A stretch of 64,000 nt of DNA from Nostocales cyanobacterium HT-58-2 (lineage in GTDB: Bacteria > Cyanobacteriota > Cyanobacteriia > Cyanobacteriales > Nostocaceae). Of the stretch, positions 4,636 to 25,144 are shown in pieces; within the stretch, counting starts at the first letter, position 1, and each line of letters begins with the position of its first letter. The DNA lies in NCBI GenBank assembly GCA_002163975.1, contig CP019636.1, positions 6,947,501 to 7,011,500 on the forward strand, given 5' to 3'. The notes below the pieces were generated by a model. The model saw nothing but the letters and a program-made list of their open reading frames with translations. It searched no databases and was not told the DNA's origin. The translations under genes and the position numbers were made by a program.

Positions 4636-5010
4636 ATGTCAGAAGAAAACCTCATTGGACTAGCAGAACTGATTGAGCAGGTTAAACGAGAATTGCTTGC
4701 AAATTCTCCAGATCAGGACACAGATGTCCCCTTCCTCAGCGTGGAATCCGTTGAATTGGAACTACAAGTGACAGTGAAAAAGGAAGGAAAAGGTGGAGTA
4801 AAAATTTACGTTCTGGAACTAGGAGGGGGAGGTAGTCGAGATGATGTACAGAAAGTGAAAGTCAAGCTCTCTCCCCTTTTAAGTAAAGAGACATTGCTAG
4901 GACTTTACCGGAAACGCCATCCGGAGCAAGTGCAGGAATTTGTAGATCAAAGTATCAAAGCTCTCACTAAAAATGTAGATGATAATAGTACTCTAGGAGA
5001 ACAATTCTAA
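4636..5010 (+). CDS. Trypco2 (trypsin-co-occurring domain 2) family protein
   Basis: Small cytoplasmic protein of 124 residues. It has an N-terminal helix (IGLAELIEQVKRELLA), an alternating beta core (VESVELELQVTVKKEG, GGVKIYVLELGGGG) and a C-terminal charged tail. This matches, from memory, the Trypco2 domain, a short adaptor that occurs beside trypsin-like or CHAT proteases in bacterial conflict-type systems. The stop is only 22 bases before the GTG of the CHAT-CHASE2 gene, so the two are almost certainly co-transcribed. The inferred role is coupling or regulating the protease next door. No catalytic residues are apparent. Confidence 0.75.
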   Translation: MSEENLIGLAELIEQVKRELLANSPDQDTDVPFLSVESVELELQVTVKKEGKGGVKIYVLELGGGGSRDDVQKVKVKLSPLLSKETLLGLYRKRHPEQVQEFVDQSIKALTKNVDDNSTLGEQF

Positions 5011-5032
5011 TCGGGGGTGACAAAGCAAGCCC

Positions 5033-7744
5033 GTGGAACTGTTTGAGCTATATCTCTCTCCCAACGAGCATCCTACTCGATTTAAAGCGATTGTCACCCA
5101 ATCGCCTGCAAGTGAGGGGGAAACAGAGTCATCGTTGCCCTTCTTTGCAGGAGAAAACGACTGGCGAACGACCTTGATTAAAACCCTAGAGTCTGCCACC
5201 TTCAGTCCCCAAGATTTCCAACAACAGGGAGAGCAGGACTGGATGGTTGTAGCGGGAATTCTTACGAGCGATCGCACTGCTTTTCATCCGCATCTGCTCA
5301 AGAATATCGGGCGATCGCTCTACCAAGCGCTTTTTCCGGCAGGGAGTAAGGTAGAAAGGGCATTACAGTCAGCCTTGCGCGCGGCGGAGGGCGAAAATAC
5401 CCAACTGCATATCCAGCTAAAATTTGAGGCAGACTCAGTACAGCGCTCTCGGCTAGCTGATTATCCTTGGGAACTGATGCATGACGGGCAAAGATTTCTA
5501 GCTCATCATCAAGTCACTTTTTCCCGCTATATTGCCCATGACACCGTTCCACCTAATTTACTCCCCGTAGAACAGGTCAATGTCTTGCTTGTGTCATCAG
5601 CTGCCTTCGATACTAACCAAGGATTGAAACAACTGTCCATACAAGAACAACAAGCAATTTATCAGGGGTTAAAGAATGCTCAGCAGGCAGGGCATATTCG
5701 TCTGTTGAAACTAGAGCGTGCGACTCGGAATCAATTAAGGGCATATTTGACCGAACATCAAGGCGCTTTAGCTCCCCATGTGTTGCATTTTGATGGGCAT
5801 GGTTTGTATGGCAAGCGTTGTCCAAATGAGCAGTGCCACAATATTCATAAAGGAATAAAAGCTGAGCGATGCAGAGTTTGCAACACAGTGTTACCTGAAG
5901 CCCAAGGATATCTGGTTTTTGAGGATGAGGACAGCAAACCAGATTATGTCAGTGCTACAGAACTTGGTATCATGTTGCGGCAGACGAGCTTTAGGGATAG
6001 CAGCAGCCAAACGACAGGAGTCACCTTGACAGTACTCAGCGCTTGTCAATCTGGGATGGCAGTGGCGGGAGACTCCGTATTTAATGGCACTGCTCAAAAC
6101 CTGATTGGGTATCGGTTACCCGCAGTAGTTGCAATGCAATACTCTGTTAGTGTCCAGAGTGCAACAAGGTTTGCCGAGCAGTTTTATCGGTCTGTTGGTC
6201 AGAAAAACTCTTTGGCAGTCGCGGTGAGTCAGGGACGAGAAGCAATGGGTGCTGAAGGCAATCAGTGGTACCGTCCGGTTCTCTACTTACGTTGGCGAGA
6301 CAATGAGGGCGGACAACTGTTTGCTGGAGACAGCAAGACTACTTCGCATATATCATTAAATCATTCCTCAAAAAATCATTCCTCAAATACAGTGGATGTG
6401 CCCGACGAGCGATCATCGCCGTTGCCAAAAGTGCCAAAAGCAGGATCAGCAGGGCTAGTTGAGCGAGTTCGCCCGCCTTTGCTGCGTGGGTCGAGTCTGC
6501 GAGCTATGCTAACAGTAAGTCTAGTGGTAACAGGTGTCTTAATAGGGCTACGTTTTTTTGGTCTATTGGAATGGGTGGAGTTAAAAGCATTTGACCATCT
6601 CATGCAACTCCGGCTGCTTGATGAAGAAGCTGATACAAGATTATTGGTTGTCAAGATTACCGACGATGATCTCAACAAACAACTTCAGCGGAATGAGCAA
6701 GGACAAGGAACCCTGAAAGACCCCTCACTTAACCGACTTCTAGAGAAATTGGAAAAGTCTCGACCTCGTTTGATTGGTTTAGATTTATACCGCGACTTTG
6801 AGACTGAACTGCCGGATTTAGGGACTCGTTTCAAGAGCAATCATTTGTTCTTCGTCTGCAAAGTCCCGGAAACTGATGTTCAAGGCAGGCAAATTGCCAG
6901 GACAGAGGTCGCACCGCCGAAGACAGTGTCTTCAGATCGAATTGGATTCAGCGATTTTGTCACTGACCGTGATAAAACAGTCCGTAGGCACCTGATGCTT
7001 CAAAAGTATCAGGAAAAGTATCAGGGAGTAGCTTGTAACGCCGAGCAGTCTTTTAGCTTTTTGCTAGCACGTCGTTATCTAGAACTGGAGCGAGGAGAAA
7101 ACAGCAAGTACCAAGATCCTTTCAAATCTAGGAAAAGTATGCAACTTGGTAGTATGATTTTTTCCCAGTTGCAACCCTTTACTGGAGGATATCAGGATGT
7201 GGATGCCTCTGGTTATCAAGTATTGCTGAATTATCGTGCCACTGGTGCAGAAAACATTGCCAAACAGTTGACACTAGAAGAGATTTTAAATAATCCCTTA
7301 GCTGATGAAGATGTGCGAGACAAAATCGTTCTCATTGGCGTGACCGCTACTCAAGGAATTAATGATAATTGGTCTACACCCTATGGCACTATGCCCGGCG
7401 TCATGGTGCATGCCCACATGATCAGTCAAATTCTGAGTGCTGTACTTGATAGACGACCTCTATTACAGGTTTGGTCACGGGGTATAGAAATTCTGTGGAT
7501 TTGGGGTTGGTCGTTGGTAGGTGGTGTGTTTGCTTGCTACTTTCGCTCGTTGAAGTCCTTGGGAATAACTGTTGGTTGCGGGCTTGTAGTGTTATATTTG
7601 ACTTGTTTAACCAGCTTAACTGTCACAAGTTTCTGGATACCACTGATACCGTCAGCACTGGCTCTAGTCTGTACTAGCTCTGGAGTCATGTATGTTGGTA
7701 TACTTAGCCGCAATCGCGTTGCAGGTCTATCCACAAAACCATGA
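5033..7744 (+). CDS. CHAT protease domain fused to a CHASE2 sensor, membrane protein
   Basis: A predicted caspase-like protease joined to an extracytoplasmic sensor. Residues 1-430 are a CHAT domain: YPWELMHDG near 144, catalytic His256 in HFDGHGLYG and catalytic Cys338 in VLSACQSG. A four-cysteine zinc-ribbon-like insert (C263, C268, C280, C283) sits between the catalytic residues. A helix at about 490-508 leads into a CHASE2 domain (about 510-800; LKAFDHLMQLR, IGLDLYRDF, VLIGVTATQGINDNWSTPYG). Three membrane helices close the protein (about 815-890). The expected topology puts the protease inside and CHASE2 in the periplasm. The start is GTG, 22 bases after the Trypco2 gene. The stop overlaps the next gene by ATGA. 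Confidence 0.87.
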   Translation: MELFELYLSPNEHPTRFKAIVTQSPASEGETESSLPFFAGENDWRTTLIKTLESATFSPQDFQQQGEQDWMVVAGILTSDRTAFHPHLLKNIGRSLYQALFPAGSKVERALQSALRAAEGENTQLHIQLKFEADSVQRSRLADYPWELMHDGQRFLAHHQVTFSRYIAHDTVPPNLLPVEQVNVLLVSSAAFDTNQGLKQLSIQEQQAIYQGLKNAQQAGHIRLLKLERATRNQLRAYLTEHQGALAPHVLHFDGHGLYGKRCPNEQCHNIHKGIKAERCRVCNTVLPEAQGYLVFEDEDSKPDYVSATELGIMLRQTSFRDSSSQTTGVTLTVLSACQSGMAVAGDSVFNGTAQNLIGYRLPAVVAMQYSVSVQSATRFAEQFYRSVGQKNSLAVAVSQGREAMGAEGNQWYRPVLYLRWRDNEGGQLFAGDSKTTSHISLNHSSKNHSSNTVDVPDERSSPLPKVPKAGSAGLVERVRPPLLRGSSLRAMLTVSLVVTGVLIGLRFFGLLEWVELKAFDHLMQLRLLDEEADTRLLVVKITDDDLNKQLQRNEQGQGTLKDPSLNRLLEKLEKSRPRLIGLDLYRDFETELPDLGTRFKSNHLFFVCKVPETDVQGRQIARTEVAPPKTVSSDRIGFSDFVTDRDKTVRRHLMLQKYQEKYQGVACNAEQSFSFLLARRYLELERGENSKYQDPFKSRKSMQLGSMIFSQLQPFTGGYQDVDASGYQVLLNYRATGAENIAKQLTLEEILNNPLADEDVRDKIVLIGVTATQGINDNWSTPYGTMPGVMVHAHMISQILSAVLDRRPLLQVWSRGIEILWIWGWSLVGGVFACYFRSLKSLGITVGCGLVVLYLTCLTSLTVTSFWIPLIPSALALVCTSSGVMYVGILSRNRVAGLSTKP

Positions 7745-8574
7745 TTTGGCTCAAGTTAGTGACCCAAAAGGCAATTCTCGCTTGCGTGCTGGTCTTAGTA
7801 GTCATTCAATTGCCCCTTTGCTTATCACCAGCCCAGGCACAATCACAACGCAAATCAGGTTTTATTGATTTTGTTGAGAAGATTAAACGTTTTTTCTTTG
7901 GTATTCGCCCTGGAGGAACACCCAGTGGTCGTGAGCGAGGCGGGGCTGTGCGCGATCGCTGTCCTAATGTAGCTCAACCGCTAACTGCATTGGTACCCTC
8001 TGTAAACGAATCACCTTTTGTTGAGCAGACAATTTCTGAGCGTCCTTCCTTCTGGTTTTATGTTCCCTACCTAAGCGCATCCTACCGAAAAGCAGAGTTT
8101 GTTTTGATAGATGATCAGGAGGAAAATGTCTACGCTGCCACGTTTCCTTTAACAGCATCACCAGGAGTTGTCAACCTGCAATTGCCAAAAACTGTGCCAC
8201 CACTACAGGAGGGCAAACAGTACCGCTGGGTATTATCTGTGATTTGCAATCCAAGCAGTCGCTCTGGGGATGTGACGGTTAATGGCTGGATTGAGCGCGT
8301 TCCCGTTAGTGCTACTTTAACTCATCAATTGAAAGCAGCGTCAACCAAAGAGCGTGTTTTGGTCTATACTGACGCAAGATTGTGGTGTGAAACACTAACG
8401 ACTCTGGCTGAGCTTCAACGCTCCAACCCCCAGGATCAAGAAGTTAAGGCAGATTGGGCTAATGTATTGCAACTCATTGGTTTGCCAGAGAATGCTTCAA
8501 AGACTTGGACGACCTACTCCTTGCCCAATCAAGCTGAAAACAGGAGAGGAAATCAAATAGCTCCGACAAAATAA
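7741..8574 (+). CDS. DUF928 domain exported protein
   Basis: A 277-residue protein with a signal peptide (residues 1-33, ending at PAQAQ). The DUF928 region follows: Gly-rich segment, DRCPNV, LTALVPSV, then a beta-rich domain with FWFYVPYLSA and WVLSVICNP, and a helical tail. Its start overlaps the stop of the CHAT-CHASE2 gene in an ATGA, so the two are translationally coupled. DUF928 proteins are mostly cyanobacterial and of unknown function, often found beside CHAT and ShlB-type genes. The periplasmic location suits a partner or ligand for the CHASE2 sensor. That partner role is inference. It converges on the next gene with a two-base gap. Confidence 0.85.
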   Translation: MIWLKLVTQKAILACVLVLVVIQLPLCLSPAQAQSQRKSGFIDFVEKIKRFFFGIRPGGTPSGRERGGAVRDRCPNVAQPLTALVPSVNESPFVEQTISERPSFWFYVPYLSASYRKAEFVLIDDQEENVYAATFPLTASPGVVNLQLPKTVPPLQEGKQYRWVLSVICNPSSRSGDVTVNGWIERVPVSATLTHQLKAASTKERVLVYTDARLWCETLTTLAELQRSNPQDQEVKADWANVLQLIGLPENASKTWTTYSLPNQAENRRGNQIAPTK

Positions 8575-8576
8575 GT

Positions 8577-11500
8577 TTATTGCCACTCTCCTTGGAGAGT
8601 AAACGCAGCCCAGTAATATGGATTTTGCCAACGTTGCTCTTTCCACATAGCAAGTTGGGCATTGCGCAATGCTTTTGCTGGTGGCAATTTTTCTTTGAGT
8701 ACCCCGTGGTAGAAGCGAGACATCAACTCTACTGTTGCTTTATCATCTACACTCCACAAACTCACCATTACCCGCTTTGCTCCACTGTACATCAAGCCTC
8801 CAGTTAAACCAATCAACCCCTCACCTTTGACTTGTTTACCCAAGCCTGTGCGACAACCACTCAATACAACAAGGTCTGCTGATAACTTGAGGTTGAAGGT
8901 ATCAGGTGTAGACACAAGACTTCTTTGTAGTTCACCTTGGTTATTAACGACAGATAGAAGAATACCTGAGCGCTCTGGTTTTTGAGTATCAAGGATGCCA
9001 TGAGTCGCAACGTGAATCAAGCGATACTGGCTTAACTCCGGAGAAAGGACTGCTTGCCGACTGGCAGCAAAATCAAATTTTCGGAGTTGCTCAGATGGAG
9101 GGATAAGGGATAAAATTTGGTCTGCTTCTTTACGGGTACCAGGTAGTCGCGGATAAAGCTGTTCTACTACAGGACTCGTATTATTTTGAATATCGCCACC
9201 ACCAACTGAATGTGATAAGTTTTGTTTGGACTGCGAGTGAGTTGCACCAGGTTTGCGAGTTAGTCTTTCATCTTCCCTACTCAAGACAGGATCTGCCAAA
9301 ATAGCAAGAGTTTTGATTGGCGATCGCTTTTCCCGACGATTGTGCCTAATCATGTCAATCGTAGAAGCTGAGGGGAGATTGATAATCTCATGATTCACCA
9401 GCAATGGTTCAACAGAAGTAGAAGAGCTTCCTGTATTAGGAGAGACTGAATTCGGGTGAAGTAATGCGCCGAAGGGAATATATTGCAGAACGCCATCCGC
9501 TACAATGAGTAGGCGTTTATTGCCCAATTGTTGTGCAATTGGTCCTAAGAGCATTTTACTCAGGTTCGCTCCTGATAATGCTACTTTAGTACTTCTAATT
9601 CTCAAGCTTGGTACAGTCAAAAAATCATAGAACTGACGGGAAGCAGCCTCAATCTCAGCTCTTTTAGGCAACTCATAGGTTTTGATATTAGTCTTAGTTA
9701 CTGCCCACAAGTAGCTACGCTCTTCACCCAAAGCGTATTCTAAAAGCAGCGTATCATCATCAAGTATTTGCTTTTGAATTTCCTTAATTTGGGATGGCTT
9801 GGTCAATTCTACATAGCGAGCATTGGAGTTGTTATTAGTTTGAGCTTGAGGATTGCGGTTAGCTCTATTAATCATTGCTAGAAGACTGCGAGCATGAGAG
9901 CGCTCACTTGCTTGTAGTGCTTCGACATCGTAACCTGCTGAGGGATTTCGTTGGTGGAGCTGCATCAGCAAGTCGATGTAAAAATCGTAGTAATTTTGCT
10001 TTGATTCTAGGTAGGTTGCAAGGTTAATGTAAGACTTATAGTTACTTGGTTTAAGGGGGGCGTTCTTCTCGTTCTGTTCAGCAGCGCTTGTTTGAGCACG
10101 TTCAGACTCAATCTTTTCAATCGCAGTCTCAATCTCAGTCCTAGCTTGAGTAAAATTTCCCTGTTGATTTTCAACACGGGCAATACCAAAGTGAGCTTCT
10201 GCTTCTTGTAAAACATTTTCTAGAGATTGCGACAGTGCCAGTGCCCGATTGTAATAGTCTAATGCCTGTTGATATTGTTTGGCAGTGTCGTATGCCTTGC
10301 CAATGAGGTTTAGTATCTCAGCTTCGGTTTTTTTATCTCCTTGCTTCTGCTTATCTCCTTGCTTCTGGGACAGTGTTAGTGCTTGATTGTAATCTTCGAG
10401 TGCTTGTTGTATCTTCCCTAAGTCAACCAACACCTTGCCTATAGACTTGAGGGCATTAGTTTGCTGCGTACTGTCTCCTTTAGATTGCCACCACTTCAGT
10501 GCCCGTTTATAGTAATCAAGAGCCTTCTCTTGTTTACCTAGCTCAGCATAAGTATCACCAAAACCAACATACATCATCGCCTCAGACTGAGGATCTAAAT
10601 GTATCAAATTAAAAAAGCCCACCAACTGGTTTGTAAATTCTTCTCCTTTTTTGTCACCAACGTTAGAAGCTAGTTTGGCAAGATAGTTAAAAGAGTTAAC
10701 TATGCTAAGAGTGCTAAGAGGAATGTTATTGGATTTAAAAAGACTCTCTGATTTGTCATGGACTTTTGATATTATTTGGTTAGCATAGTCTTGTGCTCGC
10801 TCTGTTATGCCCAAGTCGGAGTAGAGTGCAGCATTAAAAAACAACGGTGCAGCTTGAAAAAATGTAGTAACCATCTCTTCGCTGTTATCCGATTCTCCTT
10901 CTATAAATAGAATTTGACGGGCACTCAAAGACTGCGATAGTTGCTGCGCATCGCTAAATAAGTAGAGTGCTTGCTGATAATCACCCATGGATTGATAGAT
11001 GGTACCCACATCAAAGAGAGTGCCCACTTCCCAAAAGCGGATATCTGGAAAGCTAATTTTTTTCAAAGTTTCACCTATGTTGAGGCGGGCTGTAGACCAA
11101 TACGCGCCTTTTAGAGTTGACGCACCGAATCCAAAAGAAAATACCCCATTTTCAACATTTTCAGCTAATGGGGTTGATTGTAATCTAGGATTACTAGGGT
11201 TGTTCCTAAGTTGACGCCATATCAACAGTGCTTGGTTATGGAATTCAAGTGAACGCTCTGTTTCGTTTAATTCGCGGTAGTTTAAGGCAATATTGTTTAG
11301 TGTTAGGGCTTGCCAAAACGGAAGATTCAGAAGTTTAAATATTGGCAGCGCTTGAGTATAGGCATTAATTGCCTGCTGATACTGCTTCAATGTGTTGTGT
11401 GTATTGCCAAGATTATTGAGGACTGCGGCTTGTCCATGTAAGTCTTGTTTTGATTTGTAAATTTGTAATGCCTCTTGATATTTGGTAATTGCCCGCTTGT

Positions 11501-12707
11501 TATTCTCTTCGGTTTGAAAATTATAGTAAATATTACCAATATGGTTGAGCACCTTAGCTACCTTAGCTTGGTCTTTCTGGGATTGGTATATTTGCAGTGC
11601 TTCTTCATATTTAGTGAGCGCCTGCTGATATCCCCCATTGCTTTTGTAAATCTTGGCAAGTTTTTCGAGTAGCTCAGTTTTCCTGACGTGATCTTTTTTT
11701 TCTTGGGCAATGCGCAATTGCTCTTGATACTTGAGAATCTCCGATGCATAAGATGCTAATTTATTTTCAACTACATTCATCACTACATCTACCTTGGTGG
11801 GGTCAGTACCAGGGTCAAGGGAAACATTCACATCTTCAAAAAATCCCAGTCTAAATACCCGCTGCAGGTCTGTTTGCAGGATTTTGCGGTTGAACACTTT
11901 TCCAGGCTTCAACTCCAGAACTCGCATAATAATCTCAAGTGGTGTATGTCCCCGAATTTGTTGTCCCTTTTGGTCTGTCTCCTGACCTTCTTGATTGCGG
12001 AAGCGAACTTGAATATCTTCCACTACCCCTTCTGCTACTTGCAGAGTTACTACTCCATTTTCAGAAACTTCCGGTGCTCCAATAACGTTCGCCAGTGAAT
12101 ACCCTTGGTCTTGATACCGCTTAGTTAAACGCTTGATGCCTTCTTGCAAGTCACGCAAGTTGAGAATTTTGCCATACTGAGCACGAAAGATTTCCTCCAC
12201 AGCACCAGTAGGTAGTACGGAGGGAACATTCGTACCAGAGTTTGCTTTTACTTGCACTTGAGTGAATATAGGGTTAGGCTTTACTTCAAACTTCACCCGT
12301 ACTCCCAATGGAGTATCTTCTGGCACTGCCTGAACATTGGAGAAGTAGCCTGTAGCAAAAATACTGTTAATATCTTCTTGTAGTTGAGAACGAGTTGATG
12401 TATGTCCTGGTTTCGTTTTGATCGCTTTGTAAACTTCATCTTCTAGTTTTCCTTCCACTCCCTTAACCACAACCTCACTAACCAGTACTTTTGGCTCTGA
12501 TTCACTAGGTTTTGATGGAGTCGGTGGTTTTTTTGGAGATGGGGTTGTAGAGGATTGCGTCAGTAATTTGGAAGAATGAGGTTGTATTTGAGGATATGCT
12601 ACTGAACCTGATAGGCAAAGAACAATAATAGACAGAACAAGACTGTAGGGAGCAATATCTAGCAATGAACTCTTTAGTAGAAAATTTTGTTTAACTATAA
12701 GAGCCAT
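8577..12707 (-). CDS. Omp85-type POTRA x3 - TPR - CHAT protease fusion
   Basis: A 1376-residue chimera. Residues 1-40 look like a signal peptide and 41-72 form a Pro/Ser linker. Residues 73-143, 146-227 and 230-314 are three POTRA domains closely resembling those of cyanobacterial Omp85/BamA (LVSEVVVKGVEG, IFATGYFSNVQAVPEDTPLG, YGKILNLRDLQEGIKRL, VAEGVVEDIQVRF, RVFRLGFFEDVNVSL). Where the beta-barrel should begin, the frame runs into TPRs (about 320-880), then a CHAT domain with His1236 (HVATHGILD), Cys1285 (VVLSGCRTGLG) and the family end (NPYYWAAFTLQGEW). If the signal works, the protease is periplasmic. It converges on the DUF928 gene two bases away. It could not assemble barrels itself. 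It might dock on Omp85 substrates or partners. Confidence 0.87.
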   Translation of the reverse strand: MALIVKQNFLLKSSLLDIAPYSLVLSIIVLCLSGSVAYPQIQPHSSKLLTQSSTTPSPKKPPTPSKPSESEPKVLVSEVVVKGVEGKLEDEVYKAIKTKPGHTSTRSQLQEDINSIFATGYFSNVQAVPEDTPLGVRVKFEVKPNPIFTQVQVKANSGTNVPSVLPTGAVEEIFRAQYGKILNLRDLQEGIKRLTKRYQDQGYSLANVIGAPEVSENGVVTLQVAEGVVEDIQVRFRNQEGQETDQKGQQIRGHTPLEIIMRVLELKPGKVFNRKILQTDLQRVFRLGFFEDVNVSLDPGTDPTKVDVVMNVVENKLASYASEILKYQEQLRIAQEKKDHVRKTELLEKLAKIYKSNGGYQQALTKYEEALQIYQSQKDQAKVAKVLNHIGNIYYNFQTEENNKRAITKYQEALQIYKSKQDLHGQAAVLNNLGNTHNTLKQYQQAINAYTQALPIFKLLNLPFWQALTLNNIALNYRELNETERSLEFHNQALLIWRQLRNNPSNPRLQSTPLAENVENGVFSFGFGASTLKGAYWSTARLNIGETLKKISFPDIRFWEVGTLFDVGTIYQSMGDYQQALYLFSDAQQLSQSLSARQILFIEGESDNSEEMVTTFFQAAPLFFNAALYSDLGITERAQDYANQIISKVHDKSESLFKSNNIPLSTLSIVNSFNYLAKLASNVGDKKGEEFTNQLVGFFNLIHLDPQSEAMMYVGFGDTYAELGKQEKALDYYKRALKWWQSKGDSTQQTNALKSIGKVLVDLGKIQQALEDYNQALTLSQKQGDKQKQGDKKTEAEILNLIGKAYDTAKQYQQALDYYNRALALSQSLENVLQEAEAHFGIARVENQQGNFTQARTEIETAIEKIESERAQTSAAEQNEKNAPLKPSNYKSYINLATYLESKQNYYDFYIDLLMQLHQRNPSAGYDVEALQASERSHARSLLAMINRANRNPQAQTNNNSNARYVELTKPSQIKEIQKQILDDDTLLLEYALGEERSYLWAVTKTNIKTYELPKRAEIEAASRQFYDFLTVPSLRIRSTKVALSGANLSKMLLGPIAQQLGNKRLLIVADGVLQYIPFGALLHPNSVSPNTGSSSTSVEPLLVNHEIINLPSASTIDMIRHNRREKRSPIKTLAILADPVLSREDERLTRKPGATHSQSKQNLSHSVGGGDIQNNTSPVVEQLYPRLPGTRKEADQILSLIPPSEQLRKFDFAASRQAVLSPELSQYRLIHVATHGILDTQKPERSGILLSVVNNQGELQRSLVSTPDTFNLKLSADLVVLSGCRTGLGKQVKGEGLIGLTGGLMYSGAKRVMVSLWSVDDKATVELMSRFYHGVLKEKLPPAKALRNAQLAMWKEQRWQNPYYWAAFTLQGEWQ

Positions 12708-13003
12708 GAATATACCTCGTTTATAATAATGCTTCTACCTTGAACGCAAAATGTTACACAAATTACGGATGACTGATTCGTTGACTACTCAGTAGCTACA
12801 GTAGCGGGTGAATACTTTTGTGCAATATCAACTCAGTAGATCCCACTCATCGGTTCCACATTAATAGCTTAAGACCATTAAAATGGTTTTGATTCTTTCT
12901 TCATCCTCTTACAAGGAATTAGGGCAATTAGCTTTAATTTCCAGCAAGTCATACGATAGATGTAGTAGCTCAGTGCATCGCACCTCTTTTGTGAAAACCA
13001 CCT

Positions 13004-14482
13004 ATGCTCACCCAAGATAAACAACAACGTAACTGGAAACCCATCCTTAAGCAATTTGAGGCTATCGTTGGCAAAAATGGTGTTGTGCAACGCCGTGAGG
13101 AACTCATCACATACGAGTGCGATGGACTCACCAGCTATCGCCAACGTCCTGCTGTGGTGGTGTTACCAAGAACGACAGAACAGGTTGCGCAAGTGGTGAA
13201 AATATGCGATCGCTACTCTGTCCCTTTCATCGCACGCGGTTCTGGTACAGGTTTATCTGGTGGAGCGTTACCAGTTGAAGATTGTGTGTTGATTGTTACC
13301 TCTTTGATGCGACAAATCCTGAAAGTTGATTTTGAAAATCAACAAGTTATCGTTCAACCGGGAGTGATAAACAGCTGGGTGACACAAACCGTGAGTGGTG
13401 CTGGATTTTACTACGCTCCTGACCCTTCTAGCCAAATCATCTGCTCAATTGGTGGTAATGTAGCAGAAAACTCTGGTGGGGTACATTGTTTAAAATACGG
13501 TGTCACAACAAACCACGTTTTAGGCTTAAAACTCGTCCTTCCTGATGGTTCAATAGTAGACGTGGGTGGACAAATTCCCGAAATGCCTGGTTATGATTTA
13601 ACAGGTCTATTTGTTGGTTCTGAAGGAACACTGGGAATTGCCACAGAAATTACTTTGCGTATTCTCAAAACTGCCGAATCAATTTGTGTGCTTTTAGCAG
13701 ACTTTACAAGTATTGAAGCTGCGGGTGCAAGTGTTTCCGATATCATCAGTGCAGGGATTATTCCTGGCGGTATGGAAATTATGGATAATCTCAGCATCAA
13801 TGCTGTTGAAGATGTAGTGGCTACGAATTGTTACCCCCGCGATGCTGCTGCTATTTTACTAGTAGAAATTGATGGTCTGGCAGTAGAAGTTGCGGCAAAT
13901 AAACAGCGTATTGCTGAGATTTGTAAAAAGAATGGTTCGAGAAATATTACCATAGCAACTGACCCAGAGCAACGCTTGAAGGTGTGGAAAGGACGGAAAG
14001 CAGCTTTTGCTGCAGCAGGTCATGTCAGTCCAGATTATTATGTGCAAGATGGTGTTATTCCGCGTACTCAGTTAGCTTATGTTCTAGAAGAAATTGAAGC
14101 ATTGAGTCAAAAATACGGGTATCGTATTGCTAACGTCTTTCATGCTGGTGATGGCAATCTTCACCCATTAATTCTGTTTGATAATTCCATTCCTGGTGAA
14201 TTAGAAAAAGTAGAAGAAGTAGGAGGAGAAATTCTTAAGCTTTGTGTCAAAGTCGGCGGTAGTATTTCTGGAGAACATGGTATCGGTGCAGACAAAAAGT
14301 GCTATATGCCGGAAATGTTTACCGCCACTGACTTAGAAACTATGCAATGGGTACGAGAAGCATTTAATCCCAAAGGTTTGGCAAATCCAGGTAAGATTTT
14401 TCCCACACCACGCACTTGTGGTGAAGCAGCAAACGCTACAGGTGAGATTGCCAAAAAGTTTGAAGAAGTGGAAAGATTTTAG
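13004..14482 (+). CDS. glcD: Glycolate oxidase/dehydrogenase FAD subunit
   Basis: FAD-linked 2-hydroxyacid dehydrogenase that oxidises photorespiratory glycolate to glyoxylate in cyanobacteria. The 492-residue protein has the FAD-binding PCMH fold (RPAVVVLPRTTEQVAQVV, ARGSGTGLSGGALP, DPSSQIICSIGGNVAENSGG, LTGLFVGSEGTLGIATE). The FAD-linked oxidase C-terminal domain follows (VFHAGDGNLHPLI, SISGEHGIGADKK, FNPKGLANPGKIFP). Length is normal for GlcD. It stands alone; glcE and glcF are not adjacent, which is usual in cyanobacteria. A rho-independent terminator follows at once. Confidence 0.93.
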   Translation: MLTQDKQQRNWKPILKQFEAIVGKNGVVQRREELITYECDGLTSYRQRPAVVVLPRTTEQVAQVVKICDRYSVPFIARGSGTGLSGGALPVEDCVLIVTSLMRQILKVDFENQQVIVQPGVINSWVTQTVSGAGFYYAPDPSSQIICSIGGNVAENSGGVHCLKYGVTTNHVLGLKLVLPDGSIVDVGGQIPEMPGYDLTGLFVGSEGTLGIATEITLRILKTAESICVLLADFTSIEAAGASVSDIISAGIIPGGMEIMDNLSINAVEDVVATNCYPRDAAAILLVEIDGLAVEVAANKQRIAEICKKNGSRNITIATDPEQRLKVWKGRKAAFAAAGHVSPDYYVQDGVIPRTQLAYVLEEIEALSQKYGYRIANVFHAGDGNLHPLILFDNSIPGELEKVEEVGGEILKLCVKVGGSISGEHGIGADKKCYMPEMFTATDLETMQWVREAFNPKGLANPGKIFPTPRTCGEAANATGEIAKKFEEVERF

Positions 14483-19819: not shown

Positions 19820-20389
19820 TTATTTAACCTTCAACCAATTAAATATATCTACAGCTCGTACCTGCCAATCTGCCAACACATCAAGAACAGGTAATTTGTC
19901 GGTATCATACTTCACCTCTGGTAATTGATTGGGCTGAAATACCATCACCGATTTATCATTAGGGTCAATAAACCAACCTAGTTTTGTCCCTTGGTTAAGA
20001 CAGAAAATAATTTTATTAATAATGCGATTAGGAGATTGGTCAGGAGATAGGATTTCAATTGTCCAATCTGGGTAGCTTTCAAACCTGTTGGCTATCTCCC
20101 CATGCTCATCAGTCGGGATGCGTGACCACTCAAACACATCAATATCTGGAACTAAAGAACGTCCCCCAAATGTGCAACGTAACTCAGTGAAGCCCAAAGC
20201 TAACTTCCTTGATTTACCAACCTGATTGATAGCAGATGATAACTCAGTTTGAATAATACTATGTTTTCCCTGAGGCATTGGTTTTTGGTAAATTCGTCCG
20301 TCGATATACTCACTAGCTGGTTTGGTTTCTGGCAATTTGAGAAACTCTTCTAGCGAAAGGTTGGAAGATAGCTGAGTTGATAGCGCCAT
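19820..20389 (-). CDS. Uma2 family (DUF820) restriction-endonuclease-fold protein
   Basis: PD-(D/E)XK-fold protein of the Uma2 family, greatly expanded in cyanobacteria and of unknown biological role. Visible family features are SLEEFLKLPETKPASEYIDGRI near the N-terminus, HSIIQTELSSAI, LVPDIDVFEW, YPDWTIEILSPDQS and the end segment GTKLGWFIDPNDKSVMVF. The acidic residues in DIDV and EILS are the expected metal ligands. The ATG at 20389 is used; the longer frame begins with a TTG six bases upstream. It stands alone, divergent from the kinase gene at 20542. Confidence 0.88.
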   Translation of the reverse strand: MALSTQLSSNLSLEEFLKLPETKPASEYIDGRIYQKPMPQGKHSIIQTELSSAINQVGKSRKLALGFTELRCTFGGRSLVPDIDVFEWSRIPTDEHGEIANRFESYPDWTIEILSPDQSPNRIINKIIFCLNQGTKLGWFIDPNDKSVMVFQPNQLPEVKYDTDKLPVLDVLADWQVRAVDIFNWLKVK

Positions 20390-20541
20390 AAGCAATGACT
20401 CTTGGAATAATTCCAGTGAACAAATAATTTTTAGTTTTCAGAGATCCTCTGACTCTTTAACCAAGTTGTCGATATTCCACTTTATTAGGCAAACTATAAA
20501 GAAAAGTTTAGTAAACCTCTAACATATAGCCAGCATACAAA

Positions 20542-22074
20542 ATGGCAAAAAATATACCCTCAGACGGATGGCGCAAAACTTTCCATAGCGTTCGCGCTCG
20601 TCTTTTAGTGTGGTACTTTCTGTTAACAGCGTGTACGGCGACGTTTTCCATTCAAGCAACTCGCCAAGTATATTGCGATGATTTAAAAGCACGAGCTGAT
20701 GCTTCTCTTATTAAGGAGGTAGAACGATTTAAGTTGCTAGCAAAGCGTCAGAGTGAAAAAAAATTGTCAACCCCAGTTAACACAACCAAGCTGTTCGATA
20801 AATTCTTAGCTAACTACGCTCCCACACGCAACGAATATATTATCACTCTCATCAACGACCAAATCTACAAATACAGCCCAGTTTCACCTGCAGATTTGCT
20901 AGAGCAGTATCCCACCCTGTTGCAGCAATGGACTCAGCTAAAGGTGCCAAAAAAAGGTTATATACAAACTTCTACACAAAGGATTCGCTACATAGCACAA
21001 CCAGTGCATATAGGTGGAGAACATGGTACTCTTATCGCAATTCATGACTCCTCGGCTGCCTTCCAGGCGGGTACAAATGCGATTACCTTGGTGATGCAAG
21101 TCACGCTGATTGTCCTAGTCATCTTTTTCTTACTGGCGTGGGTGACTGCTGGCAGAGTATTGTATCCACTACGACTACTAACCAAAACTGCTCAGTCTAT
21201 TACTGGGTCGGATATGACACAGCGTATTCCAGTAAAAGACTCGGATGAAATTGCTGAGTTGACAAAAACTTTTAATGAAATGCTTGATAGGCTTCAGTTC
21301 GCCTTTGATAGCCAGCAGAAGTTTCTCAATGATGTCAGTCATGAACTGCGGACTCCCATTACGGTCATTCAGGGACACTTGGAGATGCTACAGTTTACCC
21401 CAGAAAGACAGCAAGTCACTATTGCCTTGGTTATGGATGAACTAGACCGTATGAGTCGCCTGGTAAATGACTTGCTGCTACTGGCAAGGACACAACGCCC
21501 AGATTTTTTGAGACTCAAGCCAGAGGAGTTAGACTGGCTTACAGAGGAACTCTACTTGAAAGCTCGCTCTCTAGCAAACCGGGATTGGCGGTTGGAGTCT
21601 AAAGGGTTGAGCCCAATAACAGTCGACCGTCAACGGTTAACGCAAGCAGTGATGAATTTGGTTCAGAATGCAGTTCGTCATACTTGTGATGGTGATACCA
21701 TTACACTTGGCTCATGTATCAAAGGGGACCATGCCTACATTTGGGTAAGCGATACCGGAGAAGGAATTGCCCCTGAAGACCAAAAACGTATTTTTGAGCG
21801 TTTTGTCAGGGCGACGAAAGGTGACCAACAGTTTGAAGGGCACGGCTTGGGACTTGCAATTGTGCAGGCGATCGCCCAAGCTCATGATGGATGGGTCGAG
21901 CTTTCTAGTCGTTTTGGTCATGGGTCTACATTTACCATTGTCATTCCCCTAGCTTCTTCTGTTGAGACTGCAATCCATGAATCGGATTCTTATTGCCGAA
22001 GACAATCCCCGCATTACCTCGTTTCTGGAAACCGGATTGCAGGCGCACGGCTTTACAACCACCATCGCCACTAA
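20542..22074 (+). CDS. Membrane sensor histidine kinase (HAMP-HisKA-HATPase)
   Basis: Classical two-component sensor of 510 residues. TM1 is at about 20-40, a periplasmic sensor region at 41-178 and TM2 at about 180-202. HAMP covers about 200-252. HisKA has His267 (NDVSHELRTPITVIQGHLEML). HATPase_c shows NLVQNAVRHT, VSDTGEGI and GHGLGLAIVQ. The family normally ends shortly after the IPLAS segment. Here the frame continues about 35 residues and overlaps the response-regulator gene by 98 bases. The tail has no domain character. It pairs with the regulator at 21977. The stimulus is unknown. Confidence 0.92.
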   Translation: MAKNIPSDGWRKTFHSVRARLLVWYFLLTACTATFSIQATRQVYCDDLKARADASLIKEVERFKLLAKRQSEKKLSTPVNTTKLFDKFLANYAPTRNEYIITLINDQIYKYSPVSPADLLEQYPTLLQQWTQLKVPKKGYIQTSTQRIRYIAQPVHIGGEHGTLIAIHDSSAAFQAGTNAITLVMQVTLIVLVIFFLLAWVTAGRVLYPLRLLTKTAQSITGSDMTQRIPVKDSDEIAELTKTFNEMLDRLQFAFDSQQKFLNDVSHELRTPITVIQGHLEMLQFTPERQQVTIALVMDELDRMSRLVNDLLLLARTQRPDFLRLKPEELDWLTEELYLKARSLANRDWRLESKGLSPITVDRQRLTQAVMNLVQNAVRHTCDGDTITLGSCIKGDHAYIWVSDTGEGIAPEDQKRIFERFVRATKGDQQFEGHGLGLAIVQAIAQAHDGWVELSSRFGHGSTFTIVIPLASSVETAIHESDSYCRRQSPHYLVSGNRIAGARLYNHHRH

Positions 22075-22645
22075 CGCTCATCAAGTCGTTAGTGTAGCCA
22101 GTAGTAAAGAATTTGACCTGTTAATTTTAGATTTGGGTCTACCAGATAAAGATGGTTTGGATGTGCTCGAAGAGTTACGAGGTAGGGGAGAAACGCTACC
22201 AATCATTGTTCTGACTGCCCGTGATGGTTTAGATGATACGGTAGCAGGATTGGATGGTGGTGCTGATGATTACATTACCAAACCGTTTCGTTTTGAAGAA
22301 CTGCTGGCGCGTATCCGAGTGCAACTGCGCAATCATAACGTACCAAGAGTCAAAGAGGAAACCACCCTCAGAGCAGCTGATATTGCTTTAGATTTGCTAA
22401 CACGAGAGGTTTGGGTAGGGGATAGATTAGTTGAACTTTCCACCCGCGAGTTTATTTTGGCAGAAGTGTTTTTGCGTCACCCCATGCAAGTGATGAGTCG
22501 AGAACAATTACTCAACCGTATCTGGGGTTATGACTACGACCCTGGGTCAAATATTATTGATGTCTATGTTGGTCACTTGCGAAAGAAGTTAGGTAGCAAC
22601 AGGATAGAGACGATTAGGGGAATAGGTTATCGGTTGCGGACGTAA
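21977..22645 (+). CDS. OmpR/PhoB-type response regulator
   Basis: Receiver domain plus winged-helix DNA-binding domain, 222 residues. The receiver has the acidic pair (AEDNP), the phospho-acceptor Asp in LLILDLGLPDKDG, the Thr in IIVLTARD and the Lys in YITKPFRFEELLARI. The C-terminal winged helix shows LSTREFILAEVFLRHP, SREQLLNRIWGYDYDPGSNIIDVYVGHLRKKL and the end motif IRGIGYRLR. The ATG at 21977 begins MNRILIAEDNP; an in-frame TTG lies 15 bases upstream. It is the partner of the overlapping kinase. Confidence 0.94.
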   Translation: MNRILIAEDNPRITSFLETGLQAHGFTTTIATNAHQVVSVASSKEFDLLILDLGLPDKDGLDVLEELRGRGETLPIIVLTARDGLDDTVAGLDGGADDYITKPFRFEELLARIRVQLRNHNVPRVKEETTLRAADIALDLLTREVWVGDRLVELSTREFILAEVFLRHPMQVMSREQLLNRIWGYDYDPGSNIIDVYVGHLRKKLGSNRIETIRGIGYRLRT

Positions 22646-22890: not shown

Positions 22891-24060
22891 ATGCGAACAA
22901 TTGCGGAAATTAATGACAAAATCAGCCGCAAGCAAGCGGTAGTATTGACCGCTGAGGAATTAGAAGCAAGAGTTCTAGAAGTCGGTGTTACCAAAGTTGC
23001 TAAGGAAGTTGATGTTATCACTACTGGTACTTTTGAGCCCATGGAATCGAGTGGTGCAATTCTTAATTTGGGACACACTGACCCACCGATAAAAATTCGC
23101 CGTTGCTGGTTAGATGGGGTGCCAGCTTACTCTGGTTTTGGCGCAGTAGATTTGTACTTAGGCGCAAGCTGTGCGGTGGAGGTGATTGATGGGGAAGAAG
23201 TCCGGGAACGCGGTGGTGGTCATGTCATTGAAGATTTGATCGCTGGTAAAACAGTACACGTACGAGCACAAGGACAAGTGACAGATTGTTATCCTAGGGC
23301 AACTTTTGAAACGACGATTACCCTTGAAACGATAAATCAATTTTATTTATTCAATCCACGTAATCTTTATCAAAATTTTATAGTAGGTGTGAATGGGGGC
23401 GATCGCCCACTTTACACGTACCTTGGTCCTTTGCAACCGCGTTTGGGCAATGCTGTTTATTCAAATCCTGGCGCCATTTCTCCGCTACTCAACGACCCGG
23501 ATTTGCAACTTGTTGGGATTGGCACGCGAATTTTTCTAGGCGGCGGTGTTGGTTATGTTGCTTGGGAAGGCACTCAGCACTTCCCTTTACAAAAACGCTT
23601 ACCCAATCGTACACCCATTGGTCCCGCTGCAACTTTGGCTTTAATTGGTGATGCTAAACAAATGGACGCTCGTTGGGTACGTGGGTGTTACTTCAAAAGT
23701 TACGGTCCTTCTTTAATGTTGGGAGTAGGTGTACCACTCCCGGTATTGAATGAAGAAGTCGTTGCCAGATGTGCAGTTCAAGATAAAGACTTGGTAGCCC
23801 CGATAGTAGATTTTTCTATTCCCAGGCGTGTCCGTCCTACCTTTGGGTTAGTCAGTTACGCCCAACTTAAGTCGGGACGCATCAGTATAGAAGGCAGAAC
23901 TGTGCGCGTTGCACCCCTTGCCAGTCAATTTCTCTCTAGGCAAGTCGCCGTAGAGTTAAAACAATGGATTGAATCTGGTGATTTTACTCTAACAGAGCCT
24001 GTTGCCGCAATTTCGATGGAGCGATCTTTTCTGCCGCAAGACCGCTGGACGGAATTCTAG
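22891..24060 (+). CDS. Homocysteine biosynthesis (HcyBio/DUF39) family protein
   Basis: A 389-residue cytoplasmic protein of the HcyBio family. Members are implicated in making homocysteine from aspartate semialdehyde by a sulfide-dependent route in anaerobes; the cyanobacterial role is less certain. Family blocks seen: RTIAEINDKISRKQAVVLTAEE, VITTGTFEPMESSGAILNLGH, GGVGYVAWEGTQHFP, MLGVGVPLPVLNEE and DLVAPIVDFSIPRRVRPTFG. The start ATG lies 12 bases after the DUF4351 remnant, so the promoter must overlap that remnant. It converges on the gene at 24140 across a hairpin repeat. Confidence 0.85.
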   Translation: MRTIAEINDKISRKQAVVLTAEELEARVLEVGVTKVAKEVDVITTGTFEPMESSGAILNLGHTDPPIKIRRCWLDGVPAYSGFGAVDLYLGASCAVEVIDGEEVRERGGGHVIEDLIAGKTVHVRAQGQVTDCYPRATFETTITLETINQFYLFNPRNLYQNFIVGVNGGDRPLYTYLGPLQPRLGNAVYSNPGAISPLLNDPDLQLVGIGTRIFLGGGVGYVAWEGTQHFPLQKRLPNRTPIGPAATLALIGDAKQMDARWVRGCYFKSYGPSLMLGVGVPLPVLNEEVVARCAVQDKDLVAPIVDFSIPRRVRPTFGLVSYAQLKSGRISIEGRTVRVAPLASQFLSRQVAVELKQWIESGDFTLTEPVAAISMERSFLPQDRWTEF

Positions 24061-24139
24061 GAAGAGAGCAAAGGAGGCTGGGAAAGCTGAGGAGGTATTT
24101 TTCTCCCCCGACTCTCCTCGCTTCCCCTGCTACCCCTGC
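24061..24139. terminator. Purine/pyrimidine hairpin between convergent genes
   Basis: Following the HcyBio stop is a G/A-rich run (GGAAGAGAGCAAAGGAGG) and then a C/T-rich run (CTCCCCCGACTCTCC). Together they form a long imperfect hairpin that fills the whole gap between two convergent genes. It probably ends transcription in both directions. It is the same type of element found inside miaA. Confidence 0.55.
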
Positions 24140-25144
24140 TTATTGTTCGGGTGGCTTCGGACGCTTAACGGGCTTAGGAATGGGTTTTGTGGATGTAGGT
24201 CTTGACGCCACAGAGGAGTCGCTTGTTTTCCGGATTGGGCGGGGAGTTTCGCCGTTGCGTGGTCTTGAGGGAAAAGGTTTCCTTCCACCAGGACGACGAC
24301 CCCCTCCTGGTCCACCTCTGCCCCTTTGTTGTGGTGGTTTGCGCTTTTTCGGCAAATCAGCGATCGCCTCACCGCTTTCTACTACCAATTCGTCACCTTC
24401 TCGCTGGACTTGTAAGTCCCAAAACTTACCGACTGCTTTTGCTTCAAGCTTCCCTTTAATTTTCAACTTGAAATACTTTGGTTTGTCATCTTGTTTGCGA
24501 GCAGCCTGCTTAATTTTGATCACTAAGTGTTCACCTTCAAAGGACTGATAAACTACCTCGCCACGAACAGAAAAACTACCATCTGGGAGTTCTGATGAAG
24601 GGACGAGGGCACTTGGTGAACCATTAGCAGTTGTTAGCAAATCTTGAGAATCGAAATCTTGCTCATTATCGGCTGTTTGATGTTTAGCCAAGTTTTCTGG
24701 CTCCCAAACTCCTACAATTTGTAGGTGCAATTTGTCGTTCTCCTGCCGAGTGCGTGGATAAACTACCCACAGATGTTCTTTTTCCAAGTCCAAATGATTT
24801 TTGACTAAACTCATAATTCGACCTAGAAGAACGGCATCGAGTTGTGCGCCATCTGTGGTCAGCATTGAACCTTGAGTAAATTGTTCGCTGCTGGCGAGGT
24901 AGCGACCTCGAACTAAGCCAATGGCTCGGTATTGCATTGGTTCGCTAGGAGGTGGAATCGGTTGCTGCCGATTTGCTAGGTTCTCATCATTAGAAGTTTC
25001 ACTTGAAATAACAGACGAATTTTCTTCTTGGGAAGCTATGTTTGCTGCATAGACATTCATAGCAGCGGTGTCTTTGCTGTTTAAAGCCTCTTTAGAGGCA
25101 GTTGAATTGAATGATTCGGGTGACGGCATCAGGTCGGAATTCAT
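24140..25144 (-). CDS. Conserved cyanobacterial protein with basic Gly/Pro/Arg tail
   Basis: I do not recognise a named family. From the chosen ATG the product has 334 residues. It begins with a low-complexity acidic/Ser N-terminus (about 1-65). A globular part follows (about 70-260) with MQYRAIGLVRGRYL, HLWVVYPRTRQ, LQIVGVWEPENL and FKLKIKGKLEAKAVGKFWDL. The last 80 residues are strongly basic and low-complexity (KKRKPPQQRGRGGPGGGRRP), ending in repeated KP. The tail suggests nucleic-acid or ribosome binding. The ATG at 25144 has AAGGAG six bases upstream, much better than the GTG at 25168. Confidence 0.75.
   Translation of the reverse strand: MNSDLMPSPESFNSTASKEALNSKDTAAMNVYAANIASQEENSSVISSETSNDENLANRQQPIPPPSEPMQYRAIGLVRGRYLASSEQFTQGSMLTTDGAQLDAVLLGRIMSLVKNHLDLEKEHLWVVYPRTRQENDKLHLQIVGVWEPENLAKHQTADNEQDFDSQDLLTTANGSPSALVPSSELPDGSFSVRGEVVYQSFEGEHLVIKIKQAARKQDDKPKYFKLKIKGKLEAKAVGKFWDLQVQREGDELVVESGEAIADLPKKRKPPQQRGRGGPGGGRRPGGRKPFPSRPRNGETPRPIRKTSDSSVASRPTSTKPIPKPVKRPKPPEQ

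Follow-up and report, generated by a model that had tools for sequence, protein, structure and literature searches.

An Omp85/BamA-type POTRA module joined to a TPR-CHAT protein in cyanobacteria, and its possible part in a trans-envelope relay

The window, a 64,000-nucleotide stretch of the Nostocales cyanobacterium HT-58-2 genome, carries a gene whose product begins with BamA-type POTRA domains and continues with a TPR-CHAT unit in the place of the barrel, beside genes for CHASE2, DUF928 and Trypco2 proteins (Table 1). The preliminary description of this fusion had proposed to discard it if the frame proved to be an assembly artefact or if the architecture never recurred. The frame is open through the POTRA/TPR junction in the window's own 3-contig genome, and the same POTRA-TPR-CHAT order recurs in other assemblies, which rules out an artefact.

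Table 1. Coordinates of the fusion gene, its parts and its neighbours in the window
Feature	Position	Strand	Evidence or remark
Trypco2 protein	4636..5010	+	PF19631, E 1.1e-19
CHAT (N-terminal)-CHASE2 membrane protein	5033..7744	+	PF05226, E 2.2e-61; PF12770, E 9.8e-22; 4-bp overlap with DUF928 gene
DUF928 protein, hydrophobic N-terminus	7741..8574	+	PF06051, E 9.8e-61; convergent with fusion gene, 2-bp gap
Fusion gene, 1376 aa	8577-12707	-	single uninterrupted ORF, ATG start
Export-type N-terminal segment, residues 1-38	12594..12707	-	hydropathy scan; similar in 11/11 members
Ser/Pro/Lys-rich linker, residues 39-72	12492..12593	-	sequence
POTRA1, residues 73-146	12270..12491	-	Pfam, PDB match, model
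POTRA2, residues 147-227	12027..12269	-	Pfam, PDB match, model
POTRA3, residues 228-315 (final strand ends at 314)	11763..12026	-	Pfam, model
TPR solenoid, residues 316-880 (first helix from 316)	10068..11762	-	Pfam TPRs, model
CHAT domain, residues 1046-1373	8589..9572	-	PF12770, E 1.8e-66; fold match
His1236 codon	9000..9002	-	invariant, 11/11 members
Cys1285 codon	8853..8855	-	invariant, 11/11 members

Pfam recognises three stretches of POTRA (PF07244, E 9.8e-27) and places POTRA_2 over residues 164-227, and residues 73-316 match the solved POTRA1-3 of Anabaena Omp85 (E 5.8e-110), bearing out the earlier assignment of three Omp85/BamA POTRAs to residues 73-314; a local phrase singled out there, IFATGYFSNVQAVPEDTPLG, is present in the protein. 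The same residues are 73% identical over 244 residues to the full-length Omp85 of the same genome. The NCBIfam model IAP75/Toc75 (TIGR00992) matches residues 58-317 (E 6.9e-60), a partial match of 203 versus 1163 bits that falls far below the whole-protein cut-off. The model of the fusion POTRAs matches Omp85/BamA (Alr2269, AnaToc75; PDB 3MC8) with Z 25.9 over 252 residues at 71% identity. Omp85/BamA bears a barrel, whereas the fusion passes directly into a TPR helix and the Omp85 barrel family is absent among the best 25 of 29 Pfam families (E<=1) and among the 19 at E<=0.001; the fusion is not an Omp85 protein. The resident Omp85 likewise has a Pro-rich stretch ahead of its POTRA1.

Replacement of the barrel by TPRs and a CHAT domain, as first described, holds in Pfam and, for the TPRs, in the model (m168261cee75d, residues 62-640, pLDDT 81 with a low-confidence stretch near 505-552). 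Multiple TPR families match at about residues 347-872, and PF12770 scores 225 bits against a curated cut-off of 24. His1236 and Cys1285 lie exactly where they had been placed, and the only other cysteine of the protein is Cys31, in the export segment. Pfam POTRA, TPR and CHAT matches (the last at E<=0.001) are found in all 11 members compared, as are both residues of the dyad. Two beta-hairpin-like insertions of some members were considered as membrane strands and set aside, with pLDDT below 50 in the window model and no counterpart in other members; hairpin-like insertions lie near residues 522-545 of the window protein and, in G009, Stenomitos, Spirulina and L159, before the CHAT domain. A BamA-BamD-like placing of the TPRs on the POTRAs (5EFR, rank 7) was also rejected (TM 0.15, rmsd 28.5), and the structural VIA list for the N-terminal half consists mostly of TPR chains.

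Sequence search of the CHAT half against the PDB gave no credible match, but a fold search matched Craspase TPR-CHAT (Csx29) and separase. The transmembrane anti-sigma factor DdvA is a periplasmic TPR-CHAT in signalling, and the TPR-CHAT model of the fusion aligns with DdvA residues 667-991 (PDB 8ROT, 8RW5; Z 20.5-20.8). Where DdvA has its anti-sigma/transmembrane part the fusion instead has N-terminal POTRAs; an N-terminal anti-sigma domain is absent from the window protein, in which 22 residues precede the hydrophobic core and the POTRAs follow it. Csx29 shares the fold of the C-terminal half with Z 27.9 over 348 residues at 16% identity, and its H615/C658 and the His1236/Cys1285 of the fusion are both catalytic-type His/Cys pairs, a likeness at the level of the pair. 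In the account given in PMC10028731, the Csx29 TPR-CHAT is a triggered endopeptidase that cleaves Csx30. Craspase is RNA-guided, whereas the fusion has an export-type start and POTRAs. Among the 12 window proteins put through Pfam there is no Cas7-11/gRAMP.

The window protein has a basic start, a hydrophobic core from residue 23 and SVA near the end of the segment. All 11 members have such a basic and hydrophobic N-terminus and no further transmembrane stretch predicted by the hydropathy scan, and export is therefore likely on hydropathy, although the N-terminus could instead be an uncleaved anchor. The preliminary description had placed the protein in the periplasm, a compartment in which CHAT proteases are seldom discussed. 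That remark is not borne out as it stands: of 20 background DUF928 loci, 13 carry a CHAT ORF, most of these beginning in an export-like way as judged by eye, so exported CHATs look ordinary in cyanobacteria.

Relatives with the same domain order were identified in eight of 217 family genomes, the window's included, with a broken copy in a ninth, and in three cyanobacterial MAGs; in two strains the fusion is plasmid-borne. Only two candidates per genome were scored in this census and in that of 386 phylum genomes, the latter (E<=1e-170) listing no full-length member beyond the window's own genome, with its overlap with other fusion genomes partly known. A two-row junction profile against 388 genomes of the order gave the whole junction, among the matches listed, for the window's own genome only. 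This negative is weak because the known fusion of G340 (Spirulina), which with G000 was one of just two labelled fusion genomes, out of nine, in the order sample, is not among the matches listed. A search of thirty chosen genomes showed one fusion (G340), and four other long frames in them end in a barrel, without CHAT. A later family census was cut at E 1e-109, and the fusion of G499 (2e-108; two unread residues in the protein) falls below it and is counted from other searches. Counts from the two-peptide-pattern search, a partial list, are to be read as at least the number given, and the two fusion contigs of G085, an assembly with 38% contamination, are counted once.

In a CHAT tree of the 11 fusions, L159 and 28 non-fusions hand-picked to span a quick tree, all 28 non-fusions fall on one side of a branch (100/99) and all 11 fusions, with one N-truncated row, on the other. 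That row is L159 (Phormidium FACHB-1136), whose contig starts inside the TPRs. After two fusion duplicates were removed from an 87-row set, the best 80 of the 85 remaining rows were retained; the 80-row set holds fusions L070 and L074 as truncated copies, and the NPA18 and Calothrix plasmid fusions are absent from it.

The POTRAs have a less uniform history. Those of one fusion nest among the BamAs of its own lineage (100/94), and a single origin of all fusion POTRAs was rejected in two trees (p-AU 0.0206 and 0.018). With Spirulina set aside a single origin is not rejected (p-AU 0.126; 0.121), nor is a clade of Spirulina, Stenomitos and G009 (0.138) or one of the window and Mastigocoleus (0.304); the place of the window protein with Nostoc BamAs may therefore reflect slow evolution. 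Nine other fusion POTRAs form a single group in one tree (83/83). A tree with fewer rows and more outgroups requires five changes of the fusion label (starred branches force at least 3); left out of it were two of the long outgroups, nine of 16 Nostoc BamAs and three fusions that are near-duplicates. Recent gene conversion from the resident BamA to the window POTRAs is unsupported, with just 54% agreement at third codon positions across 178 identical residues.

Constraint was compared between eight fusions (three near-duplicates omitted) and 24 BamAs (20 outgroups and four of 16 from Nostoc), pairs being non-independent. The fusions retain 24 of 33 BamA columns conserved at >=90% in POTRA1 and 15 of 21 in POTRA2 (39/54 combined) versus 6 of 30 in POTRA3, and these numbers are unchanged when the window is left out. 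Relative to the resident Nostoc BamA, identity in POTRA1 and POTRA3 is 51-68% and 26-35% for seven of the eight fusions, 74% and 66% for the window protein, and 53% and 52% for the most divergent BamA used; relaxation of POTRA3 is not universal, because that of the window is still BamA-like. At matched identity the POTRA3/POTRA1 identity ratio is 0.53 in 22 fusion pairs versus 1.11 in 38 BamA pairs, although a single divergent BamA enters 23 of these 38 and weighs heavily on the comparison. POTRA1 is the most conserved POTRA among fusions (pairwise identity 61% versus 45% for the whole POTRA region), and certain POTRA columns are invariant over the 11 divergent members. The suggestion that the protein is steered by BamA partners fits this sequence pattern, with POTRA1-2 kept and POTRA3 relaxed in most members.

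In nine of 13 loci (the window and eight of 12 others) CHASE2 and DUF928 genes are paired no more than 2.4 kb from the fusion; neither was found in the stretch read at the remaining four, which are alike, come from Nostoc and include a broken one. Conflict-type cytosolic heads (CHAT, trypsin, TIR, EAD1, Trypco) are present at six of the nine linked loci: CHAT with Trypco2 in the window and in Stenomitos (the latter's Trypco2 by BLAST), and elsewhere EAD1, CHAT-TIR, a short CHAT-like head, and trypsin with Trypco1 (Spirulina). A cytosolic head of known family was not found at the other three (L136, L137, L168), and the label 'Trypco-like' for ORFs beside CHASE2 in L136 and L137 was dropped, having no Pfam support. 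PADLOC scores the TIR of the CHAT-TIR head as ThsB-like (E 4.8e-63), with TPR matches only for the fusion and none for the CHASE2, DUF928 and Trypco2 proteins of the window. A Trypco adaptor, here Trypco2 in the window and Trypco1 in Spirulina, also belongs to the ternary conflict systems described by Kaur et al. 2020 (PMC7159879). A Pfam scan of 12 window proteins at 405-22074 gave no MoxR/vWA NTPase match, ORFs 19820-20395 and 21962-22645 and smaller ones lying outside the scan.

DUF928 genes are common, with up to 20 per genome in the sampled cyanobacteria, so the neighbours of the fusion may be shared background. Exported-looking TPR-CHATs of other CHASE2-DUF928 loci (L212 12737-15403, L214 11069-13786) share with the fusion the export-like start as judged by eye, TPRs, CHAT and neighbour families, but have no Pfam POTRA match. 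The POTRA is the new element relative to known-style CHASE2-DUF928 CHAT loci. The non-fusion TPR-CHATs sampled lie across the 100/99 branch from the fusions, the L212 and L214 examples being outside that tree.

Our preferred reading, to which we give slightly less than an even chance, is that the fusion would supply the periplasmic peptidase of a trans-envelope CHASE2-DUF928 relay, docked through POTRA1-2 to outer-membrane-protein assembly. The protein would be an exported TPR-CHAT cysteine peptidase with Omp85/BamA POTRA1-3 at its N-terminus and a TPR solenoid from the barrel position, and its POTRA1-2 would bind the ligands of the BamA POTRAs, either outer-membrane-protein clients or the holdase Tic22; by sharing these ligands the peptidase may read the state of outer-membrane assembly. 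PMC12895209 describes cooperation of Toc75 POTRA1 with Tic22-III and interaction of Anabaena Tic22 with Omp85. Once triggered, the CHAT domain would cleave a periplasmic partner, putatively either the CHASE2 ectodomain or DUF928; the signal would then travel through the CHASE2 protein to its cytosolic head, whether CHAT, trypsin, TIR or EAD1/Trypco. More speculatively, and in our estimation rather unlikely, the whole may be an immune or death relay sensing outer-membrane assembly, with a BamA-POTRA bait or dock re-acquirable from the resident BamA and CHASE2 leading to cytosolic TIR, CHAT or trypsin effectors.

A periplasmic quality-control protease, in which the POTRAs would hold unfolded outer-membrane proteins for DegP-like degradation by the CHAT domain, is possible but not favoured, and we consider it improbable. 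The POTRA module is intact and, according to PMC12895209, Toc75 POTRAs are reportedly chaperone-active, but the CHAT relative with known mechanism, Csx29, is described as cutting a single regulator, Csx30 (PMC10028731), and a gene in nine of 217 family genomes, plasmid-borne in two strains and near CHASE2/DUF928 at most loci, is unlike housekeeping. The policing of unfolded outer-membrane proteins proposed in the preliminary description is unsupported; CHASE2, DUF928 and the cytosolic modules in six loci speak for a role in signalling or in the control of effectors. The POTRAs might instead be an integrated decoy, bait copies of the host BamA through which an invader acting on periplasmic BamA would trigger the CHAT domain and a lethal or protective head. 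The immune-type heads, including the ThsB-like TIR, the patchy and in places plasmid-borne distribution, the derivation of one member's POTRAs from its own lineage's BamA and the retention of POTRA1-2 despite barrel loss agree with a decoy, but docking to BamA partners accounts for the same facts, PADLOC gives TPR matches only for the fusion itself and none for the CHASE2, DUF928 and Trypco2 proteins of the window, and we know of no invader that acts on POTRA from inside; we regard it as improbable.

There is likewise only a small chance that the POTRAs merely hold the peptidase at outer-membrane Omp85, the CHAT domain processing substrates that are exported or lie at the surface, for instance TPS-type adhesins from cassettes of this kind. 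TPS-type ORFs occur in six of 20 background DUF928 loci (one confirmed as PF05860) and about 2.7 kb from the fusion at one locus (L098), but a single BLAST query found none at the other 12 fusion loci, and the least retained POTRA is POTRA3, which in Omp85 adjoins the barrel. Domain shuffling that left the POTRAs without specific function would suit the patchy distribution, but is very improbable given the invariant columns, the excess conservation of POTRA1 and recurrence across several families.

Outside this architecture, POTRAs are to our knowledge confined to barrel proteins and a small number of proteins of division or secretion; the fusion links them to a caspase-like peptidase and, through the neighbouring genes, to a sensor whose cytosolic heads are of conflict type. 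If the proposed docking is true, bacteria would have a means of informing cell-fate effectors about the state of outer-membrane assembly, and the neighbourhood hints at an unstudied route by which envelope trouble is reported into the cell. The contrast between POTRA1-2 and POTRA3 suggests a division into partner-serving and barrel-serving POTRA surfaces, for Omp85 and possibly for Toc75 as well. For all the abundance of its genes in the sampled cyanobacteria, DUF928 is named in a single paper of the literature searched. Among Bam-pathway genes only POTRA matches were sought in the neighbourhoods, and an extra Omp85-like ORF lies on the Mastigocoleus contig.

The POTRA, TPR and CHAT domains of the fusion protein were all assigned by Pfam, and a partial match to the NCBIfam Toc75 family spans its POTRAs. 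Residues 73-316 match the POTRA1-3 crystal structure of Anabaena Omp85 (PDB 3MC8; E 5.8e-110) and share 73% identity with a full-length Omp85 (BamA) of the same genome. A model of residues 62-640 (pLDDT 81, built with nine sequences) contains three POTRA folds, POTRA3 completing its final strand at residue 314 and the TPR helices beginning at residue 316, and its best match is 3MC8 (Foldseek 2e-29; VIA Z 25.9, 252 residues, 71% identity). For the model of residues 885-1376 (pLDDT 73), the matches are the Craspase TPR-CHAT, with Z 27.9 and rmsd 3.3 over 348 residues, and separase, where Z reaches 23.4. The preliminary description had reported a POTRA-TPR-CHAT order with His1236 and Cys1285 in place; the order is correct, recurs in other genomes and is not due to chance, and both residues are present and invariant in all 11 aligned members. 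By hydropathy scan, rather than a signal-peptide predictor, the same 11 have a basic-then-hydrophobic N-terminus and no further transmembrane stretch. Beta-hairpin-like inserts with an alternating pattern were noted at residues 522-545, a TPR region of low model confidence, and similar inserts precede CHAT in G009 (a family genome), Stenomitos, Spirulina and the N-truncated Phormidium FACHB-1136 locus (L159).

The counts of fusion genomes given here are lower bounds. Unbroken fusion frames were found in at least eight of 217 family genomes (G000, the window genome; G085, Mastigocoleus testarum; G112; G135; G524; G499; G107; G009), and G143 has a broken copy with a 405-residue frame, whose POTRA starts at base 5041, a start shared with the disrupted copy of Nostoc sp. 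LEGE 06077. A scan of named genomes added at least three metagenome-assembled genomes (MAGs) with single-ORF fusions (Stenomitos rutilans, Leptolyngbyaceae HOT.MB2.61 and Spirulina sp. SIO3F2); in one further MAG, Leptolyngbyaceae SM2_5_2, the fusion has frame breaks. Two Calothrix strains, Calothrix sp. 336/3 and C. brevissima NIES-22, carry the gene on plasmids, where it is annotated as "CHAT domain-containing protein" or "hypothetical protein".

Coordinates of fusion genes and associated features
Feature	Locus	Position	Strand	Remark
Fusion gene	Window	8577-12707	minus	Intact ORF, 1376 residues
CHASE2-DUF928 cassette	Window	4636-8574		
CHAT-TIR protein	L102, Calothrix sp. 336/3 plasmid NZ_CP011383	3033-4136		Adjoins CHASE2, DUF928 and fusion
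Three small ORFs	L136, Nostoc PA-18-2419	12120-14236		209, 217 and 205 aa; between fusion and DUF928
Broken fusion copy	L154, Nostoc sp. LEGE 06077	4903-7220		
Broken fusion copy	L171, Leptolyngbyaceae MAG	4964-9445		
Extra Omp85-like ORF	G085:C152, Mastigocoleus testarum	23932-24639		652-residue frame; ~13 kb from fusion, same contig

In the CHAT tree, 11 fusions and the N-truncated Phormidium row are split from all 28 non-fusion TPR-CHATs by a 100/99 branch, a split also recovered in a quick tree of 80 rows. In the POTRA trees, which contain long branches, the Spirulina fusion falls within the BamAs of the lineage it belongs to (100/94), its sister being the BamA from the same genome (99/90), and the window POTRAs cluster with Nostoc BamAs (100/99 in one tree, 96/86 in another). 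A single clade of all fusion POTRAs was rejected in two tests (p-AU 0.018 and 0.0206); a clade omitting Spirulina was not (p 0.126 and 0.121), nor were two narrower groupings. On the strength of the Spirulina placement and these tests, at least one separate POTRA capture or replacement is likely, and more than one is possible.

Mean pairwise identity across POTRA1, 2 and 3 is 60.8, 44.7 and 32.5% in eight fusions versus 67.1, 56.1 and 62.8% in 24 BamAs, a pattern little altered by omitting the window protein or two divergent BamAs. Fusions retain 24 of 33, 15 of 21 and 6 of 30 BamA columns that are at least 90% conserved in POTRA1, 2 and 3, respectively. Measured against the Nostoc BamA of the window genome, POTRA1 identity is 51-68% and POTRA3 identity 26-35% for seven of the eight fusions. 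The corresponding values are 74 and 66% for the window protein and 53 and 52% for the BamA that diverges most within the set. From these figures we read POTRA1-2 as a probable retained docking surface and POTRA3 as having probably lost a barrel-side duty, the window protein being exceptional in POTRA3. Toc75 POTRA1 is described as interacting functionally with Tic22-III, and Omp85 with Tic22 in Anabaena (PMC12895209); Alr2269, the Anabaena Omp85, is reported to be active in calcium uptake and not to be required in BG11 (PMC12548389).

Adjacent CHASE2 and DUF928 genes lie within 2.4 kb of the fusion at nine of 13 loci, CHASE2 being divided into two ORFs in SM2_5_2. At the remaining four, all from Nostoc (L133, L098, L140 and broken L154), neither was seen in the stretch read; these loci have one neighbor gene in common. 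The cytosolic module fused to or beside CHASE2 differs between loci: CHAT with Trypco2 in the window and Stenomitos, EAD1 in Mastigocoleus, a CHAT-TIR protein in Calothrix sp. 336/3, a short CHAT-like protein in SM2_5_2, trypsin with Trypco1 in Spirulina, and no recognized family in L136, L137 and L168. The TIR part of the Calothrix protein is ThsB-like (PADLOC, E 4.8e-63), and its plasmid is typed as mobilizable (MOBQ). The Trypco name derives from conflict systems (PMC7159879), and related systems include EAD1 and CHASE2 (PMC8195603). All three small ORFs of L136 have export-like starts, and the one scanned had no Pfam match.

Of 31 genomes searched, the window genome included, 29 carry DUF928, with up to 20 per genome and nine in the window genome. 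In a non-random background set of 20 other DUF928 loci (eight from the window genome and the best-scoring one from each of 12 genomes), 16 have CHASE2, 13 a CHAT ORF (mostly with an export-like start as judged by eye, and two of them fragments), six a TPS-type ORF and none a POTRA-TPR-CHAT. Pfam confirmed CHAT-CHASE2, DUF1822, TPR-CHAT and TPS in selected proteins; in L212 the CHASE2 protein carries CHAT, and so does a second protein, a TPR-CHAT. CHASE2-DUF928 pairs accompanied by a CHAT ORF that is often export-like, and in some loci by a TPS-type ORF as well, look like a widespread, hardly described cyanobacterial cassette. As CHASE2 and CHAT are common in the background loci and POTRA-TPR-CHAT is absent from them, the fusion appears to represent a variant subunit within this cassette. 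In the literature searched, a single paper names DUF928, in a CHASE2/DUF928/WD40 cluster of Nostoc (PMC5587647), and none mentions POTRA jointly with a CHAT domain and cyanobacteria.

Csx29, a TPR-CHAT of the same fold, is a triggered endopeptidase cutting the regulator Csx30 (PMC10028731). The fold is also shared by DdvA, a transmembrane anti-sigma factor acting on DdvS (PMC4374960), and the cyanobacterial CHAT protein HetF belongs to the divisome and has one predicted transmembrane segment (PMC8406250). By analogy, the fusion may be a triggered peptidase exported to the periplasm, where POTRA1-2 would position it at outer-membrane-protein assembly through a putative partner; its target could be DUF928 or the ectodomain of CHASE2, through which the cytosolic head would be affected. 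The preliminary description, whose observation of the fusion stands, had suggested policing of unfolded outer-membrane proteins or steering by BamA partners. The policing role is possible, but we consider signaling within the CHASE2-DUF928 cassette more likely.

Additional POTRA genes in Omp85-size frames are present in all nine fusion genomes searched again (the eight family genomes and Spirulina, G340). Four further loci (L253-L256, from G324, G265, G384 and G367) have Omp85 frames of ~1000-1300 residues in which the POTRAs start at residue 424-688, and these unusually long N-terminal extensions occur in one genus.
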